Assembly (NCBI GenBank): GCA_022340665.1
Contig: JAJDNM010000062.1
Location: 1 to 64,000, forward strand
Length of the DNA: 64,000 bases
From: Acidobacteriota bacterium
GTDB lineage: Bacteria > Acidobacteriota > Thermoanaerobaculia > Thermoanaerobaculales > Sulfomarinibacteraceae
Direction of reading: 5' to 3'
The translations under genes and the position numbers were made by a program. Below the pieces are notes generated by a model that did not search any database, was not told the DNA's origin, and saw nothing but the letters and a program-made list of their open reading frames with translations. Position 1 is the stretch's first letter; each line of letters begins with the position of its first letter. This document shows positions 159 through 9,145 of this stretch, piece by piece.

Positions 159-572
159 TTAACCGGACCCGGTGCCGTCGAGGAGGGTGTCGAGCACCGC
201 CAGCAGGGTTTCGCGGTCGACCGGTTTGCCGAGCACGCCGTCCGGACCGCGAACACCTTCGTGCGCACCGAGGTACGACTGGCAGTCGTCCTCGAGCAGG
301 GTGTCGTTGCCCGTCACAACGACCATCGGCACCTCGCTCCATTTCGGATCGCGGCGCAACGACACCAGGAGGTCGAGGCCGGACTTGCCCGGCAGCAGGG
401 CATCGATGAGGATCACCTCCGGTTGGAACTCATCCAACATTCCGCGAGCGGTCGAGCAGCGGCCGGCGGTCTTCACCGCGAAGCCCTCATCCTCCAGGAA
501 GAACGAAAGGTAATCGACAATATCGGGGTCGTCGTCGACGATCAGAACCCGCCGCTCGGATCCCGCCATCAC
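159..572 (-). CDS. Single-domain response regulator (receiver only)
   Basis: 137 aa CheY-like receiver with no output domain. The acidic pair (VDDDPD, near residue 13), the phospho-acceptor Asp in LIDALLPG, the Thr in VVVTGN and the Lys in LGKPVD are all present, so it should be phosphorylatable. Its start ATG overlaps the stop of the upstream histidine kinase by 4 nt (ATGA), so the two are translationally coupled and this is probably the kinase's partner. Its C-terminal LGKPVDRETL closely resembles LGKPVDEDKL in the receiver fused to the iron-sulfur protein two genes upstream, suggesting they share kinase or phosphatase. With no DNA-binding domain, it probably acts by protein contact or phosphate relay. 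Confidence 0.9.
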   Translation of the reverse strand: MMAGSERRVLIVDDDPDIVDYLSFFLEDEGFAVKTAGRCSTARGMLDEFQPEVILIDALLPGKSGLDLLVSLRRDPKWSEVPMVVVTGNDTLLEDDCQSYLGAHEGVRGPDGVLGKPVDRETLLAVLDTLLDGTGSG

Positions 573-2047
573 TCGATGGCCTCTTCCTCGGGCTGGATGC
601 TCGGCTTGGCGTCCAGCGGCACGCGGACCAGGAAGCGGGTACCGCGACCTGGCTCGGATTCAACCTCGATCGTTCCGCCATGCTTGTCGACGATCTTGTT
701 CGAGATGAAGAGACCGAGCCCGGTGCCCTTGATGCCCTTGGACGAGAAGAACAGCGAGAAGATCTTTTCGCGCGTCTCTCGATCCATCCCGAGGCCGTTG
801 TCCTCCACCTCGATGATCATCCACGGCTCCTCGCGCCGGACATCGAGCCGGATCCAGTGGTCGCCCTTGTCCTTGTCCATCCGACACGCGTCCAAGGAGT
901 TCTCGAGCAGGTTCAGCAGCATCGCGCGAATCGCCTGCGGATCGCCAGCAAAGATGCCGGTATCCTCGGCAAGATCGATCCTGACCTCGGTGTCGGCATC
1001 GCTCGCCTTCTTTTCAAGGCCTGCCCGAAACTCGGCGACGATGGCCTGTAGATCGACATCCTCGACCACCAGCTCGCGGTCCTTGGCGTAGTAGAGAATG
1101 TCGAGCACCATCGAGCGAATCCTCTCCACGTTGCGCTGGACCATCTCCCAGCCCTTCTCGACCCGCTCCGGCTTGTCTTTGGCGAATCCCGAATTGACCA
1201 TGTAGATGCCGCCGTCGAGACCCGTGAGCAGGCCCTTGATGCCGTGCGAGATTGAACCCACCAGCAGACCGATCGACGCCAGCTGCGATTGCAGCTCGCG
1301 AATCTGGGTGATGTCGATACACATCTCGATCACTGCCTCGACCTCGCCATCAGCGTTGCGGAGGGGCGCCGTCGTGCAGAGACCGTTGAGCTTTTCGCCA
1401 TCCTCGGTGAAAAGGATTTCTTCGTGCTCCCTGGTCACTCCGTCGTCGAAGGTCTGCTGCATGGGACACACCAGGCACTGCTCGTCCCGGTGCTTGTACA
1501 TCTTGAAGCAGCTCTGACCGATCGGATCGCCGAAGGTCTCGCGGAAGCGGCGGTTGGCGTGCTGGATGACCCGGTCCGGGCCCTGCACGGTGATGAAGCA
1601 GGGCACTTCCTCGAAGAGCTGGGCGAGTCGTTCCTGGGACCGCTGAAGTTCGCTTTGAAGCTGCTTGACCTCGGCGATGTCGGTGTGCATCTCCATCACG
1701 GCGACGATCTCCTCGGAATCATCCCTGATGGCGGTTGTGTGGACCATGACCGGCACTTCCCGCCCGTCCTTGGTCGTCAGGAGTTGCTCTGAGGGGTGGG
1801 TCTGGCCGTCCAAGAAGGTCGCCTCGACCGGGCAGTTTGGGCAGACCTCGTCTCGTCCCTTGTAGACCCTGTAACAGTACTGCCCGATCCGCTCACCAAA
1901 ATCCTCACGAAACTTTCGGTTCCCGTCGATGATCCGGAAATCCCGGTCGTGCACTGACAGGTAACAGGGCATTTCCTCCCAATACTTCTGGTACGGGGAC
2001 TCTGGCTCGCCCAGCCCTTTGGGAATGGTCAGCTGGACCTTGTCCAC
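569..2047 (-). CDS. Double-PAS soluble histidine kinase with duplicated four-Cys pattern
   Basis: 492 aa cytoplasmic sensor kinase; no membrane segment is visible. PAS 1 covers about residues 20-125 and PAS 2 about 143-250, joined by a short coiled coil. Each PAS carries cysteines in the same spacing: C28/C58/C69/C72 and C150/C180/C191/C194 (gaps 30, 11, 3), with the shared context RDExCxxCP. This suggests a metal or iron-sulfur site in each. The HisKA His is H268 (SISHGIKGLL). The ATPase domain has the N box (LLENSLDAC), G1 (EDNGLGMD), F box (FSSKGIKGTG) and G2 (GTGLGLFIS). It follows the HdrD-like/receiver fusion by 39 nt and overlaps the downstream receiver gene. Redox sensing is inferred from the cysteines and the operon. 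Confidence 0.9.
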   Translation of the reverse strand: MDKVQLTIPKGLGEPESPYQKYWEEMPCYLSVHDRDFRIIDGNRKFREDFGERIGQYCYRVYKGRDEVCPNCPVEATFLDGQTHPSEQLLTTKDGREVPVMVHTTAIRDDSEEIVAVMEMHTDIAEVKQLQSELQRSQERLAQLFEEVPCFITVQGPDRVIQHANRRFRETFGDPIGQSCFKMYKHRDEQCLVCPMQQTFDDGVTREHEEILFTEDGEKLNGLCTTAPLRNADGEVEAVIEMCIDITQIRELQSQLASIGLLVGSISHGIKGLLTGLDGGIYMVNSGFAKDKPERVEKGWEMVQRNVERIRSMVLDILYYAKDRELVVEDVDLQAIVAEFRAGLEKKASDADTEVRIDLAEDTGIFAGDPQAIRAMLLNLLENSLDACRMDKDKGDHWIRLDVRREEPWMIIEVEDNGLGMDRETREKIFSLFFSSKGIKGTGLGLFISNKIVDKHGGTIEVESEPGRGTRFLVRVPLDAKPSIQPEEEAIE

Positions 2048-2086
2048 GCGGTCACTTCCTTTCTCGTCCAGGCAGGTCGGGTCGGC

Positions 2087-3853
2087 TCAGTTTGCCTTTT
2101 CCTTCCGGTGCTCGACGATGTGATGGGCGTAGGCCACCAGTTTGTCCTCGTCCACTGGCTTGCCGAGATATCCCTCGGGCGGCGGCACCGGCCGATCGTA
2201 GATCACCTGCCGGAATTCCGGGTGACCGGTGACCACACACACCGGGATTTCCTCGGTGGCCGGATCCGACCGCAGCTCGACGAAAGCTTCAACGCCGTCC
2301 TTGCCCGGCATAGACAGATCGAGGCTGATGAGGTCCGGCTGATACTCGCGTGCCTTGGCGAGGGCTTCGTCGCCGTCGGTCGCCGTCTCGACCTCGGCCC
2401 CGGCATCCTCGAAGACCATCGTGAGGAAGGCTCGAACGTCCTCCTCGTCATCCACCACCAGAATCTTGCGGCCGGCGAGCGGTTCCTTCTCCGCTACCTT
2501 CTTCACCTCGAGGTCGCCCGGCTTCAGCTCGTCGGGGATCTTCTCCGGCTCTTCGATGATCAGCGCGTTGGCGACCAGGTTGACCAGCTGCTTGACCTCG
2601 CAGTCGAGCTTGTAATGCTTAATCAGGTCGTTGAGGCCGTCGACGCAGTTGTGGCAACTGGTGACCACCACCTTGGCTCCGGTGGCGCGGATCTGGTCGG
2701 CCTTGATCTTGGCCGACTCTAGACGCCGCGGCGTGTACTCCGACATCGACATCGCGCCGCCGCCGCCCGTGCAGCAGTAGTTTTCGGCACGATTCGGATA
2801 CATCTCCTGAAAGTCCATCGACACCAGTTTCAGGAGCTCTCGTGGCTCCTCGAAGAAACCACCGCTGCGTGCGTTGTTGCACGAGTCATGGAAGGTCATC
2901 CTCTCCGGGTTCTTGGTCGGGTCGACCTTGATCTTGCCCTCCTTGATGTAGTCCAGCATCGTCTGGACCGACGTCTCCATCGGCACCGGTTCGGTCTCAG
3001 CAGCCCAGTTGACACCTTCGAAGCGGGTCGAGCGGAAGCCATGGCCACACTCGGAGATGACGATCTTGTCCACGCCGAGTTCGCGCGCCTTTTCATACTC
3101 CCTCTTGGCGCACGCACCACCGAGCTGATCATCGCCCGAGAACAGGCCGAAATTGGTGTTATCCCAACCCTCCTCGGGCATGGTCCAGTCCTCACCCGCC
3201 GCCCAGAAGATCAGCGCCGCCTCCTTGATGGTACGCGGGTCGTACTTCACCTCACGGGGATTGATGCAATACATTACATTGGCGCCCTTCTTCTCGACCG
3301 GGATCGTGGCTTCGTCGTGGCCAAGGTCCTCCTCGAGCTCCTCCGACATCCACTCAAGGGTGTCGAGGTAGTCCTCCTTGAGGACGCCCATCTGATTGCC
3401 GAGCTCCCACTGGTCTTTGGAAACCACCCGCACCCCCTCGGGCATGACGCCGACGTGTGCCAGCAAACCGCGCATGATGCGGTTGAGGGTCGCCGTATCG
3501 ACACCCATCGGGCAGCTGAGGGTGCAGCGGCGACAGTTGGTGCACGTGCCGAAGGCGATGTCCTTGAGCGTCTCGAGGTCATCGTCGGTCAGCGGTACTT
3601 TGTCCGCTCCCACCCACCAGGGAAAGGTCTTGCCCGTCCAATCGTGGTTGGCCTTGAAGAGCTTGCGCAGCTGGTCGGCCTTGTACGACGGGGTCATCTT
3701 GTGGTCATCCGGAAATGCGAGCACGTAGTGACAGGATTCGTCACACATCCCGCAGTGCACGCAGCCAACCAACGAGCCGACCACCTGACGATTGAGCTTC
3801 TTCGCCAGCTGCTCTTCCATCATCTTGATTTTGTGTGTCTTTTGCCTTGCCAC
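2087..3853 (-). CDS. HdrD/DsrK-like iron-sulfur oxidoreductase fused to a C-terminal receiver domain
   Basis: 588 aa. N-terminal ferredoxin-type cysteines C31/C34/C37/C41 and C104/C107/C110/C114 should bind two [4Fe-4S] clusters. One full CCG domain follows (C325, C360-C361, C400, C403), the type that holds the catalytic noncubane cluster in heterodisulfide reductase HdrB/HdrD and DsrK. An earlier half-domain (C196, C269) is degenerate. After a linker near 440-460, residues 462-585 form a complete receiver: D468/D469, phospho-acceptor D512 (SLDLSMPG), T542, K565 (LGKPVD). HdrD, DsrK and HmeD proteins normally end after the CCG domains, so the receiver is a fusion. The gene lies 9 nt after the DsrM-like membrane subunit and 39 nt before the histidine kinase. 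RBS GGAGGC precedes the ATG. The thiol/disulfide substrate is unknown. Confidence 0.9.
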   Translation of the reverse strand: MARQKTHKIKMMEEQLAKKLNRQVVGSLVGCVHCGMCDESCHYVLAFPDDHKMTPSYKADQLRKLFKANHDWTGKTFPWWVGADKVPLTDDDLETLKDIAFGTCTNCRRCTLSCPMGVDTATLNRIMRGLLAHVGVMPEGVRVVSKDQWELGNQMGVLKEDYLDTLEWMSEELEEDLGHDEATIPVEKKGANVMYCINPREVKYDPRTIKEAALIFWAAGEDWTMPEEGWDNTNFGLFSGDDQLGGACAKREYEKARELGVDKIVISECGHGFRSTRFEGVNWAAETEPVPMETSVQTMLDYIKEGKIKVDPTKNPERMTFHDSCNNARSGGFFEEPRELLKLVSMDFQEMYPNRAENYCCTGGGGAMSMSEYTPRRLESAKIKADQIRATGAKVVVTSCHNCVDGLNDLIKHYKLDCEVKQLVNLVANALIIEEPEKIPDELKPGDLEVKKVAEKEPLAGRKILVVDDEEDVRAFLTMVFEDAGAEVETATDGDEALAKAREYQPDLISLDLSMPGKDGVEAFVELRSDPATEEIPVCVVTGHPEFRQVIYDRPVPPPEGYLGKPVDEDKLVAYAHHIVEHRKEKAN

Positions 3854-3862
3854 CGTTGCCTC

Positions 3863-4555
3863 CTAACCTCGAACGACCGGATAGCTGCCGCGCTGCCCGA
3901 GGGCCCGACCGATGTATGTCCGGGTGAATGGATAGTAGAGATAGTGTGAGATTTTCGAGAACGGAACATAGAGCAGGAAAAAGCTCGTCAGGTAGAGGTA
4001 AGCGATCAGCAGGTTTTCGCTCGTCATTCCCCAGATTCCCATCAGATAGGCCTGCGTGCATGCGCCGAGCCCGAACCAGATGGTCAGCATCACGAGCGAG
4101 AAGTAATCGTCGGGAGTGCTGATCAACTTCATCAGTGGCCGCAAGACTCTTCGCCCAATCCGGTAGAGCGCGACGATGAACGCAGCGACGAGAAAGACGA
4201 TCATCGTCCAACCCACCACCGGGATGCGCAGGAAGTCGGGCGCGATAGTGCTGACGAAGGCGAGGGTGATGCCCGCTACGACCCCGAGGTGGAAGATCAC
4301 GAAGCTGAGGTAGAAGATGAAGCCCTTGGGCTTGCGGGTGCTCTCCATCGACCATGGCATGGCGACGTTGAACAAGGAGTAACGGGCTCCTCGTTTCTTG
4401 TCCGATTGCGTCGGGTTGCCAGGCATCGATCTGTCCTTGGCAAGCGTGAACGACGTCAGCCAGCGAATCTTCAGTGTGTAGACGATTGCCATCACCACGA
4501 GTGAGATCCAATGGACAACCTCCGCGGTGTGCAGTGCAGTACTCACTTCGTGCAT
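3863..4555 (-). CDS. DsrM/HmeC/NarI-like membrane cytochrome b subunit
   Basis: 230 aa with about five hydrophobic segments (roughly 13-31, 80-101, 112-133, 150-172, 178-203). Candidate heme ligands are His near H15 and H89 (IFHLG) and the conserved-looking SHYLYYPF near 207, the pattern at the end of NarI- and DsrM-type subunits. Family role: a b-type cytochrome that exchanges electrons between the quinone pool and a cytoplasmic iron-sulfur partner, here surely the HdrD-like protein encoded 9 nt downstream. One nucleotide separates it from the macro-domain gene upstream, so they are co-transcribed. There is no DsrJ, DsrO or DsrP-like gene nearby, so this is a minimal two-subunit (MK-type) complex rather than the full sulfite-reduction complex. 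Confidence 0.85.
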   Translation of the reverse strand: MHEVSTALHTAEVVHWISLVVMAIVYTLKIRWLTSFTLAKDRSMPGNPTQSDKKRGARYSLFNVAMPWSMESTRKPKGFIFYLSFVIFHLGVVAGITLAFVSTIAPDFLRIPVVGWTMIVFLVAAFIVALYRIGRRVLRPLMKLISTPDDYFSLVMLTIWFGLGACTQAYLMGIWGMTSENLLIAYLYLTSFFLLYVPFSKISHYLYYPFTRTYIGRALGQRGSYPVVRG

Positions 4556-4556
4556 C

Positions 4557-5084
4557 TCACTCTCCTTCCTCGATCTTCGCCTTGAACGGATTGAACTCTC
4601 GATTGTCGGGCGCGACGATCAACACCTCTACGAGCGTGCCGCCGTTGGCCAGATGCTTCGAGATCGTGTCTACCATCACTCTGCTGCACATATCGAGCGG
4701 GACCTGGTAGAGCCCGGTGCCGATCGGCGGAAAAGCCAGTCGTTTGATACCCTTCTCCTCGGCCCGAGACAGGGCCGATTTAACGGTCTTGCGAAGCTTT
4801 CCCTCCTCATCCTCTTCGCGGAACTTCGGGCCGTTGGCATGGATGATCCAGTCGGCCTTGAGGGCGCCGGCCTCGGTCACCACCGCCTCACCCGTCGGGC
4901 AGCTGCCAATTTCGTCAAGCTGCTTCTGGATGACGATGCCCCCACGCTGCTGTATGGCACTACCGAAGCCCGATCCCAGTTTGACGTCTTCGGTGATGTC
5001 GAAGACGAAGGCCTCGACATCCATGTCCGTGATGTCTTCCCGAACCAGCCGCAGGACCTTGTTGCCGATCTGTTTCTCCGCCAT
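4557..5084 (-). CDS. Macro-domain protein (ADP-ribose-binding fold)
   Basis: 175 aa from the ATG at 5084, which has a strong RBS (GGAGGA); the open frame continues upstream but that part overlaps the Rrf2 gene. The macro fold is seen in the glycine-rich GSGFGSAIQQRGG loop and in PPIGTGLYQVPLD, both of which contact ADP-ribose in the family, and in IIHANGP. The usual catalytic/substrate Asn segment (NAAN) is replaced by FDIT, so classic hydrolase activity is doubtful and a binding role is more likely. It lies between the Rrf2 regulator (29 nt upstream) and the cytochrome subunit (1 nt downstream). It may sense an NAD-derived ligand for the redox operon; this is inference. Confidence 0.8.
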   Translation of the reverse strand: MAEKQIGNKVLRLVREDITDMDVEAFVFDITEDVKLGSGFGSAIQQRGGIVIQKQLDEIGSCPTGEAVVTEAGALKADWIIHANGPKFREEDEEGKLRKTVKSALSRAEEKGIKRLAFPPIGTGLYQVPLDMCSRVMVDTISKHLANGGTLVEVLIVAPDNREFNPFKAKIEEGE

Positions 5085-5113
5085 GACTGTCCTCCATGCT
5101 CTTATGAGTCCTA

Positions 5114-5578
5114 TTACCCCGTTTCGAGTCCGACCAGCCTGCCGGTCACGGATCTGCCGGTTTCCTTCATCCATCCCGGATCGATGAGATCGGCCAGGTT
5201 GTACTCTTCCAAAACCTCTCCAACCCGAAGGTTGATCATCGCGTAGACGACTCGACACTCACAGGATTCAGCCCTCGGGCATGATTCGGGTTCCTCGATG
5301 CAGTCGACGACGCAGATCGGACCGATGGTTGCCTCGATAATTTGGCGGATGGAGATGTCCTCCGGCGACGAGGAGAGCTTGTAGCCCCCGTGGCGCCCCG
5401 CGACACCGCGAACCAGTCCGGCGTTGCGGAGAGACAACGCGACTTGCTCGAGGTACCCGTGAGAGATTCCTGTGCGTTCGGCGACCGACGCCAGGCTGAT
5501 TGGCGTATCGGCGCCGCCTCTCCGTGCAAGATCGAGCATCATCCGGAGGGCATAACGGCCGCGAGTTGAAATCTTCAT
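5114..5578 (-). CDS. Rrf2-family (IscR-type) transcriptional regulator
   Basis: 154 aa. The N-terminal winged helix starts MKISTRGRYALRMML, typical of Rrf2/IscR. The central loop holds C89, C93, C100, C106 and C108; IscR, NsrR and RsrR use three such cysteines to bind an iron-sulfur cluster, so a redox-, iron- or NO-responsive cluster is likely. It is first in the minus-strand redox operon and is divergent from a receiver gene at 5731, so it may control both. No Shine-Dalgarno precedes the ATG, and a plausible -10 ends only about 9 nt upstream, so the transcript may be almost leaderless. The start matches the family's usual N-terminus. Confidence 0.9.
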   Translation of the reverse strand: MKISTRGRYALRMMLDLARRGGADTPISLASVAERTGISHGYLEQVALSLRNAGLVRGVAGRHGGYKLSSSPEDISIRQIIEATIGPICVVDCIEEPESCPRAESCECRVVYAMINLRVGEVLEEYNLADLIDPGWMKETGRSVTGRLVGLETG

Positions 5579-5587
5579 CGTGGACTG

Positions 5588-5616
5588 AAGATATTCCTAT
5601 TATTCATACCTGTCAA
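5588..5616 (-). promoter_or_regulatory. Putative promoter of the Rrf2-led redox operon
   Basis: On the minus strand a perfect -35 TTGACA (5611-5616) and TATCTT (5588-5593) are separated by 17 nt. The whole 5579-5665 stretch is strikingly AT-rich for this genome and contains the related strings CCTATTATT and AGGAAATAAT flanking the -35, a possible Rrf2 operator. Inferred, not proven. Confidence 0.5.
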
Positions 5617-5730
5617 CTAGGAAATAATATATTCATCATTAATCTCAATCTCAACAAAATATTGACATTGTGGCGCCTTCGTTGGAGGTGCTATCGTGTT
5701 GCCGGAGAATGGCCGATCGAGGAGGCATTG

Positions 5731-6120
5731 ATGGCACCGAAAACAGCCGTGATCATCGACGACGAACCGGATATCACGACCTATTTCTCGACTCTCTTGA
5801 CCGATGCTGGATGGAAGGTTCGCACCGCCAACGATCCCAACGAGGGCATCACACTGGCCCGGGAGGATCCGCCTGCGGTCGTCATGTTGGATGTGATGAT
5901 GCCCGAACGCGGGGGCCTCAGCACCCTGATCGCACTGCGCAAGGACGAGCGGACGGCTAAGATCCCGGTCGTGCTCGTGACCGGCATCCAGGAAAGCCTC
6001 AAAGCGGATTTCGGCGACTTTCTCGATCGGTTCAAGAAATACCACCCAGATGCATACCTGCAGAAACCGATCAACGAGGATGAACTGCTTCAGACCCTGG
6101 CCAAGGTCACTGGCGAGTAG
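5731..6120 (+). CDS. Single-domain response regulator, divergent from the redox operon
   Basis: 129 aa receiver with no output domain. The ATG at 5731 is chosen because GGAGG lies 6 nt upstream; the longer open frame runs into the AT-rich promoter region. Acidic pair in IIDDEPD, phospho-acceptor Asp in VMLDVMMPERGG, Thr in LVTGI and Lys in LQKPINEDEL are all present. It is divergent from the Rrf2 gene and is the third receiver of the same sub-type within 6 kb. Its 3' end overlaps the convergent glycosylase gene by 14 nt. No kinase adjoins it on this strand, so the PAS kinase at 569-2047 is the obvious candidate donor. Confidence 0.88.
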   Translation: MAPKTAVIIDDEPDITTYFSTLLTDAGWKVRTANDPNEGITLAREDPPAVVMLDVMMPERGGLSTLIALRKDERTAKIPVVLVTGIQESLKADFGDFLDRFKKYHPDAYLQKPINEDELLQTLAKVTGE

Positions 6121-7801: not shown

Positions 7802-8272
7802 ATGACGATTGATCTCGATTTTTCCAAGCTCTCGGGGAGCGACGTGCTCGACATGGCGATTGCCATCGAGGACGAGGCCACGATCTACTATGAGCAGCTC
7901 GCCGATTGGGTCGGGGACGACAATCCGGACGTCGTCGATTTCTTCAAGCGTATGGCTGTGCGTGAGAAGCGCCACCACGACCAGATCGTCGCGCTGCGTG
8001 ACCACCTGTTCGCCGAGGCTGTGAAGAGCCACGCCGACAAGGTCTCGTGGGCGGTCGAAGCTCCTGATGTCTACAAGGTGCCGGACGACGTCAATCTCCG
8101 ACAGGCGTTCGAGGTCGCGATGGACGCCGAGACGCGGGCCCACGACTTCTACGCCGGCGCCCTCGAGTACGCCACCGATGATCAGGTGACCGAGCTCTTC
8201 GAGGGCCTGCGCCAGGCCGAGGCGGATCACAAGCGAATGCTCAAGGAGGAGATGGAGAAGCGTCTGGTCTGA
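7802..8272 (+). CDS. Ferritin-like / rubrerythrin-family diiron protein
   Basis: 156 aa four-helix bundle. Likely metal ligands are E..Y in IEDEATIYYEQL, EKRHH in helix 2, ETRAHDFY in helix 3 and EADHKRM in helix 4, the E/ExxH pairs of ferritin-like diiron carboxylate proteins. There is no C-terminal rubredoxin CxxC domain, so it is not a full rubrerythrin. Expected role: iron handling or peroxide reduction in the cytoplasm. RBS GGAGG precedes the ATG and a small TTCG-loop hairpin lies in the leader. The gene is convergent with the Mth938-like gene, with only 34 nt between them, all of it repeat. Confidence 0.85.
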   Translation: MTIDLDFSKLSGSDVLDMAIAIEDEATIYYEQLADWVGDDNPDVVDFFKRMAVREKRHHDQIVALRDHLFAEAVKSHADKVSWAVEAPDVYKVPDDVNLRQAFEVAMDAETRAHDFYAGALEYATDDQVTELFEGLRQAEADHKRMLKEEMEKRLV

Positions 8273-8665: not shown

Positions 8666-9145
8666 TCAACCGTAGGGAAAGACGACGGGATAGCGCGGGA
8701 TCATCAACTCGCGAGCCTTCTCCTGGTCCGCCTCCGTCGGGCGAACCGTTATCACGGTCGTCTCGAGGTCCCTGAGAAGGGCCAACGCAGTGCTTCCGAG
8801 GCCGACGTCGAGCGGTCCCCTCTTCGAGTGACTGCCAATCACGAGCACATCGGCGCCGACCTCTTCCATATGAGCGAGAATCTCTCGGCTCGGCTTGCCC
8901 TTGCGAATTCGTGTCTCGACCTCGAGGCCTTTCGACCTGAGAGGCTCGGCATAACGGTCCATCTTTTCTTCCATCGTCTCGACATCGGGCAGCAGCTCTA
9001 CCGGTGCCTCCACCGACAACACCGATACAGGAGCGTCGTAGGCGACCGCAACCACCTCTGCGAGGTCCCGAATCCTGGCCGCGATCGGGGTGATGTCGAG
9101 GTAGCGTTGCAGCGCCGCTGCTACACAGATCTTCTCGTAAACCAT
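8666..9145 (-). CDS. Universal stress protein, single UspA domain
   Basis: 159 aa from the ATG at 9145, supported by GGGAGGA 4 nt upstream. One UspA domain: start KICVAAAL, then DVLVIGSHSKRGPLDVGLGSTA, matching the G-2x-G-9x-G(S/T) nucleotide-binding loop, and a final VITVRP strand. Role in the family: stress survival, often ATP-binding. A terminator-like hairpin lies on the same strand 68 nt upstream of this start, so expression may be attenuated. The Mth938-like gene follows after 11 nt. Confidence 0.9.
   Translation of the reverse strand: MVYEKICVAAALQRYLDITPIAARIRDLAEVVAVAYDAPVSVLSVEAPVELLPDVETMEEKMDRYAEPLRSKGLEVETRIRKGKPSREILAHMEEVGADVLVIGSHSKRGPLDVGLGSTALALLRDLETTVITVRPTEADQEKARELMIPRYPVVFPYG

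Follow-up and report, generated by a model that had tools for sequence, protein, structure and literature searches.

A conserved operon of an Acidobacteriota bacterium encoding an HmcF/TmcB-like iron-sulfur subunit fused to a receiver domain, with a possible role in redox signalling

The window analyzed here is a 64,000-nucleotide (nt) stretch of DNA (contig JAJDNM010000062.1, assembly GCA_022340665.1, positions 1–64,000 of the forward strand) from an Acidobacteriota bacterium of the Thermoanaerobaculales, Sulfomarinibacteraceae. An operon at 159–5578 on its minus strand encodes an Rrf2 regulator, a macro-domain protein, a cytochrome b, a 4Fe-4S/CCG protein continuous with a response-regulator receiver, a PAS-PAS histidine kinase and a free receiver. 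All the genes claimed in the original prediction for this DNA, a divergent receiver included, were found where it had placed them and, except for the cytochrome, are supported by Pfam. If 5084 is taken as the start of the macro gene, the intergenic spacings it gave (29, 1, 9, 39 and −4 nt) hold exactly, and the five cysteines it counted in Rrf2 could be located. The features are as follows.

5114–5578, minus strand: Rrf2-family regulator, 154 amino acids (aa) (Pfam Rrf2, 2e-34); cysteines at 89, 93, 100, 106 and 108.
4557–5084, minus strand: macro-domain protein, 175 aa (Pfam Macro, 1e-27); glycine loop LGSGFG kept, canonical NAAN absent.
3863–4555, minus strand: TmcC/HmcE-like cytochrome b subunit, 230 aa, with an estimated five or so transmembrane segments (NCBIfam).
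2087–3853, minus strand: HmcF/TmcB-like 4Fe-4S/CCG subunit with C-terminal receiver, 588 aa (Pfam, NCBIfam, conservation, tree).
2645–2881, minus strand: CCG catalytic cysteine motif of the fused protein, C325-C360C361-C400xxC403 (invariant, 45/45).
2480–2548, minus strand: flexible linker, residues 436–458 (low predicted confidence, variable length).
2099–2470, minus strand: fused receiver, residues 462–585, with acceptor D512 (codon 2318–2320; Pfam Response_reg, 2e-20).
569–2047, minus strand: PAS-PAS histidine kinase, 492 aa, H268, with CX10CX2C in each PAS (Pfam, two PAS and HATPase_c).
159–572, minus strand: free single-domain receiver, overlapping the kinase stop by 4 nt (Pfam).
5731–6120, plus strand: divergent single-domain receiver, sharing its intergenic region with rrf2 (Pfam).

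Within the single 588-aa reading frame, Pfam recognizes Fer4_8, CCG and Response_reg (residues 464–575). The redox part has the two 4Fe-4S motifs and the CCG cysteine motif of HdrD/CCG proteins (Pfam CCG, Fer4), and the receiver has the acid pair D468/D469, acceptor D512, T542 and K565, so that the complete receiver proposed originally, with D512 as acceptor, is borne out. When 45 fusions were aligned, the eight [4Fe-4S] cysteines, C269 and the CCG set were invariant (42–45 of 42–45 sequences per column), and D468, D469, D512 and K565 were nearly so. Because the residues of both parts are conserved in this way, both halves of the fusion look functional. Among NCBIfam models, HmcF and TmcB match the subunit equally well (both 1.2e-95) and DsrK more weakly (1.2e-73); the score for TmcB, equal to that for HmcF, is 321 bits and lies below the NCBI TmcB cut-off of 735 bits, and that for DsrK is 248 bits against a cut-off of 400. 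The subunit had been called HdrD/DsrK-like, which is correct as to its HdrD/CCG redox motifs, but by NCBIfam and by the tree described below it stands nearer to HmcF/TmcB than to DsrK. On the same two grounds its identity as a plain DsrK was rejected.

In the AlphaFold model (34 sequences) the receiver is predicted with confidence and is joined on through a linker that is disordered (residues 436–455, predicted local confidence (pLDDT) <50; predicted template-modelling score (pTM) 0.67). Foldseek leads from the redox part to EtfD and from the C-terminus to receivers. EtfD (9ojn), a membrane-bound CCG reductase, is both the best fold match of the redox part and its sole relative by sequence with a solved structure (3e-12); it differs in its partner protein, electron-transfer flavoprotein, and in its longer chain, and no receiver is described for it. 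The fused receiver has a conserved alpha4-beta5 segment, GHPEFRQVIYDRPVPPPEGYLGKP (pattern GxPExRxxIYxRxVPPPEGYxxKP), and this signature is not found in the free receivers of the same cassettes, except in freed copies of the fused receiver. All three receivers of the window cassette match the NCBIfam DVU0259 receiver family, DVU0259 being associated with the tmc operon of D. vulgaris.

The full-length fusion occurs in 10 of the 37 genomes of the order, at 55–90% identity and in the same operon, apart from one genome (G011) whose fused cassette has neither the macro gene nor the downstream receiver; it was found in 12 of the 396 Acidobacteriota genomes drawn. A scan of named genome contigs yielded 80 loci, 37 of them fused and spread over about 12 phyla. 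The titles of the fused loci name Acidobacteriota, Planctomycetota, Myxococcota, Zixibacteria, Syntrophaceae (Thermodesulfobacteriota), Elusimicrobiota, Bacteroidota/Kapabacteria, Electryoneota, Calditrichota, LCP-89, Ignavibacteriota and Gemmatimonadota, where single phylum assignments may be wrong because these loci come mostly from metagenome-assembled genomes (MAGs). Neighbouring genes were called with a codon-usage caller (high-GC DNA). The usual order in the 37 named loci is macro protein, cytochrome, CCG::receiver, kinase and receiver, with one to three free receivers per cassette; Rrf2 is mainly limited to the closest members, and the divergent receiver is conserved near most of these. 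A one-off fusion without a conserved neighbourhood was the outcome that the original prediction had named as speaking against it; chance, a one-off or an assembly artefact is ruled out, since a further nine genomes of the order have the fusion within the same operon and 37 named loci carry it elsewhere, and the architecture recurs together with its neighbourhood. Upstream of the fused cassette, six loci (L078:5353-7041, L079, L080, L082, L089, L091) encode a sigma-54 activator whose N-terminal domain is a low-molecular-weight phosphatase and which also contains a Cys-rich PAS (CHxxFPGRFCGGDCSFC). Six others from several phyla (L094:4665-5444, L072, L073, L086, L088, L077) have at this place a MerR-type protein whose C-terminal region is rich in cysteine (CWEYxxxxxxxxxxCxDC).

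In a tree of 131 CCG proteins the fused proteins form one clade (support 98) that includes 11 unfused members. Its sister is formed by the Tmc and Hmc subunits (TmcB/HmcF) of sulfate reducers, and DsrK-type proteins lie outside. The fused/unfused label needs four changes on this tree, for example one gain and three losses, the latter in L101–L108, in L095 and in L096/L097; in L097 the receiver is a gene of its own directly behind the CCG gene, which is a fission. The tree thus points to about one gain, that is, to one ancient fusion probably kept over about a dozen phyla. In the receiver tree, where single-domain receivers give few columns and many forks are weak, all fused receivers but that of L092 form one group (support 87), close to free receivers that follow the kinase in these cassettes. 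From this placement, the ancestral operon receiver may have duplicated and then fused. In six fused-cassette genomes there are in addition stand-alone, unlinked paralogues of the fused receiver (L053:6746-7192 on G000:C28, and L054–L058), which are 55–60% identical to it, keep part of the linker and fall within the fused clade; they look like freed copies. As a component of the system they were set aside, with no neighbourhood common across genera.

The cytochrome has no Pfam match and is assigned through NCBIfam to TmcC (1e-10) and HmcE (2e-9). All 19 cytochromes of canonical Tmc/Hmc operons, taken for comparison from Desulfobacterota genomes, have histidines at the equivalents of positions 89, 102, 186 and 204, whereas all 42 cassette cytochromes keep only H89 and H204, and so have one of the two bis-His haem sites of the Tmc cytochrome b. 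By analogy, the surviving pair is predicted to bind the haem nearer the Fe-S subunit. Neither a multihaem cytochrome c nor an NrfD-type partner was found in the inspected cassettes. From the lost ligands, the lack of a multihaem cytochrome c there and the analogy with NarI, no transmembrane electron transfer from a periplasmic cytochrome c is predicted, and the complex would work between quinone and a cytoplasmic partner, as a monohaem oxidoreductase. The macro-domain protein is present in nearly every fused cassette and in nearly every phylum. The NAAN catalytic-loop motif of ADP-ribosyl hydrolases is replaced by VFDITEDVKL in the window protein, and over 39 aligned macro proteins the glycine loops alone are conserved; the protein may sense an ADP-ribose-like ligand.

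H268 of the kinase is kept throughout (38/38), and both PAS domains contain an invariant CX10CX2C (C58/C69/C72 in PAS1, C180/C191/C194 in PAS2); PAS2 has a fourth invariant cysteine, C150. This motif occurs in 38 of 40 cassette kinases, one of the exceptions being a contig-end fragment; it is shared by kinases encoded next to canonical Tmc/Hmc operons (L160, L162, L163, L165) and beside other CCG operons of the window genome (L060, L061), and is not found in unrelated kinases of the same loci. Such a distribution suggests that the Cys-PAS is an Fe-S or thiol-redox sensor common to the kinases of CCG/cytochrome-b complexes. The two further CCG/cytochrome-b operons of the window genome (L060 and L061, on G000:C141) are flanked by single-domain receivers and Cys-PAS kinases, and L061 additionally encodes ferredoxin and NrfD-like subunits.

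Two features lie in front of rrf2.

5601–5625, minus strand: putative palindromic operator ATTTCCTAGTTGACAGGTATGAATA (consensus TACTCCTASTTGACAACTAGGAGTA), overlapping the rrf2 −35 box.
5588–5593 and 5611–5616, minus strand: −10 box TATCTT and −35 box TTGACA of rrf2, respectively.

The palindrome TACTCCTASTTGACAACTAGGAGTA lies over the rrf2 −35 box in most close relatives and upstream of rrf2 in at least 10 cassettes. In each of the six genomes searched it was found at one site, always upstream of rrf2, and the reversed pattern, used as a control, had no match in these six genomes. With a single operator per genome, always at this place, Rrf2 looks like a dedicated local regulator of the operon that would bind the putative site at 5601–5625.

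The fused cassette goes together with genes of dissimilatory sulfite reduction. Within the order, dsrB is present in 9 of the 10 fused genomes and in 9 of the 27 others (p=0.003), and among Acidobacteriota in 11/12 against 18/384 (p=5e-13), p-values that overstate the case because genomes are not independent samples. Over all phyla, dsrB was detected in 31 of 37 fused genomes. None of the eight Acidobacteriota whose matched subunit has no receiver carries dsrB (0/8), and two unfused loci outside this Acidobacteriota set, L101 and L102, come with dsrB. In three Syntrophaceae-type loci (L076, L085, L090) the cassette is placed between dsrABD/CbiA-DsrN-like/dsrC and dsrMKJ(OP); in L045 it adjoins dsrABD, and in L077 DsrC-like and DsrMK-like genes. 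DsrMKJOP is present besides the cassette (L059; L076/L085/L090). More distant unfused relatives lie in operons of DsrC, cytochrome, CCG protein and a cysteine-desulfurase-like class-V aminotransferase. In L048–L052 and L118–L140 an operon of DsrC/TusE-like protein, TmcC-like cytochrome and CCG protein is conserved, often beside the class-V aminotransferase; the genomes concerned are often without dsrB, and the operon is possibly a sulfur-transfer respiratory module.

The system can be compared with several known ones. Tmc (TmcABCD) resembles it in its HdrD-like CCG subunit, its NarI-like cytochrome b, and the DVU0259-type receivers, Cys-PAS kinases and universal stress proteins alongside; however, the Tmc receiver is a separate gene, the cytochrome has four histidines, the CCG subunit belongs to a separate clade, and Tmc has TmcD and the four-haem TmcA, which was present in the canonical loci and found neither in the window operon nor in the inspected cassettes. 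Hmc (HmcA-F, rrf1/rrf2) shares the HmcE/HmcF pair and an associated receiver and Rrf2, both of which are in the window operon, but it is without the fusion, and its further subunits, HmcA with 16 haems and the quinone module HmcB/HmcC, are not co-encoded in the inspected cassettes. The rrf1 and rrf2 products are described regulators of hmc expression (PMC10924467). A plain Tmc or Hmc was therefore ruled out by the canonical-locus comparison, the separate clade and the lost haem histidines. DsrMK is similar in its cytochrome b and CCG subunit, its quinone-to-DsrC thiol chemistry and its dsr context; it differs in that DsrK falls outside the fused-family clade and DsrMKJOP is present in addition to the cassette. 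Single-domain (CheY-like) receivers are likewise complete receivers without a DNA-binding output, but here the receiver is covalently joined to a redox subunit. The claim that no system of this form had been described was too strong, for canonical tmc/hmc operons already carry separate receivers, kinases, universal stress proteins (USPs) and sometimes Rrf2 (in L165 the order is cytochrome, CCG, USP, unfused receiver, kinase, Rrf2). The novelty lies in the covalent fusion, which forms an ancient and broad lineage, and further in the reduced cytochrome, the macro partner without its catalytic motif and the association with dsr. In the literature searched, which took in few subscription journals, no description was found of the fusion or of the role of the receivers beside Tmc (such as DVU0259), and response regulators or two-component systems are unmentioned in the examined papers on dsr-bearing Acidobacteriota or sulfite reducers.

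The following mechanism may be proposed. The TmcC/HmcE-like cytochrome b, with one bis-His haem, would exchange electrons with the quinone pool, and the two [4Fe-4S] clusters and CCG-type centre of the HmcF/TmcB-like subunit would carry them on to a thiol/disulfide partner in the cytoplasm, for which the (tri)sulfide of DsrC, from the dissimilatory sulfite reductase pathway, is the likeliest candidate. The cellular redox state would be read by the PAS-PAS kinase via CX10CX2C, as an Fe-S cluster or thiol switch; the kinase would phosphorylate the tethered receiver of the Fe-S subunit at D512, upon which that receiver would dock with its alpha4-beta5 face on the redox core, or leave it, and so alter the activity of the core. 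The free receivers would be competing or branching outputs of the same kinase, and Rrf2 would control expression of the operon via the operator at its own −35 box. The genes, the fusion and its conservation, the kept cysteines and receiver residues, the operator, the phylogeny and the tie to dsr are observed; we infer the phosphotransfer, the pairing of kinase and receiver, the gating and its direction, and the electron partner. Gating by phosphorylation, one of the two possibilities originally raised, is still the best reading, and in our judgement there is an even chance that the complex is a quinone-thiol oxidoreductase that works with DsrC and is gated when the Cys-PAS kinase phosphorylates D512. 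In its favour are the recurrence of the fusion with its gene order, the single clade with about one gain, the conserved residues of both halves and of the kinase, the receiver's own alpha4-beta5 signature, the distribution of the PAS motif, the association with dsrB and the dsr cluster, and the DsrC operons of the unfused relatives. Several points weigh against it. AlphaFold gives no docking pose for the receiver on the redox core; with the disordered linker and the pTM obtained, such a pose is not readable from the model. The remaining haem is assigned to the cytoplasmic side, that of the Fe-S subunit, by analogy with NarI, and DsrC is named as the most likely partner from gene context. The macro-domain protein has no role in the model. 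In 6 of the 37 fused genomes no dsrB was detected, and these may be incomplete MAGs or may use the complex outside the Dsr pathway.

Signals might also flow in reverse, with the cytochrome/CCG complex serving mainly as a sensor that reports its redox state (the quinone pool or the persulfide load of DsrC) through the tethered receiver to the kinase and on to the free receivers, catalysis being secondary. The complex comes on top of DsrMKJOP and does not replace it, the loss of one haem-ligand pair fits low-flux sensing, each cassette has one to three free receivers, and a kinase can be restrained by a docked receiver. Yet none of the 45 proteins departs from the CCG catalytic cysteines or from the two [4Fe-4S] sites, the kinase has Cys-PAS sensors of its own and needs no external one, and the conserved acceptor pocket points to phosphorylation as the input; reverse flow seems unlikely to us. 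It is distinctly improbable that the fused receiver just recruits the kinase to the membrane complex or drains phosphate, leaving electron transfer unaffected. A flexible linker would suit such a part, the freed copies in six genomes are as expected of a tradeable sink, and the unfused members of the clade (L095, L101–L108) show that the enzyme can do without the receiver; on the other hand, the alpha4-beta5 output face is distinctive and conserved, one ancient fusion has been kept across phyla, and the contrast in dsrB between the receiver-less Acidobacteriota relatives and the fused genomes implies that the receiver marks a physiological difference. An ordinary Tmc/Hmc operon in which a lost stop codon has simply joined the receiver to the adjacent gene, without any new function, would account for the homology to TmcB/HmcF and TmcC/HmcE and for canonical operons with adjacent receivers, kinases and Rrf2. 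This is very improbable and largely refuted by cassette content, clade and lost haem ligands: the clade is separate, deep and supported, the cassette has no multihaem cytochrome c or NrfD-type partner, the second haem-ligand pair is gone, and free receivers persist beside the fused one.

For the most part, the regulation of respiratory complexes is put down to expression, substrate supply and membrane potential. We suggest tentatively, and with somewhat more doubt than belief, that the fusion represents a widespread class of respiratory enzyme in which a redox-sensing Cys-PAS kinase directly sets the flow of electrons by phosphorylating a receiver built into the redox subunit. If so, anaerobic sulfur respiration would have here a fast point of control by signalling, in addition to control through gene expression. 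As a natural gene fusion it also predicts with what the single-domain receivers, long known as neighbours of hmc/tmc operons, would physically interact, and an unexplained neighbourhood becomes a testable interaction; by extension, the separate Tmc/Hmc receivers (DVU0259, Rrf1) may act on the complexes themselves and not on transcription.

A few kilobases from the operon, the window has a rubrerythrin-like gene (7802–8272) and a universal-stress-protein gene (8666–9145). USPs accompany canonical Tmc/Hmc operons, and a rubrerythrin-like gene is also close to two other cassettes, L040 and L044.

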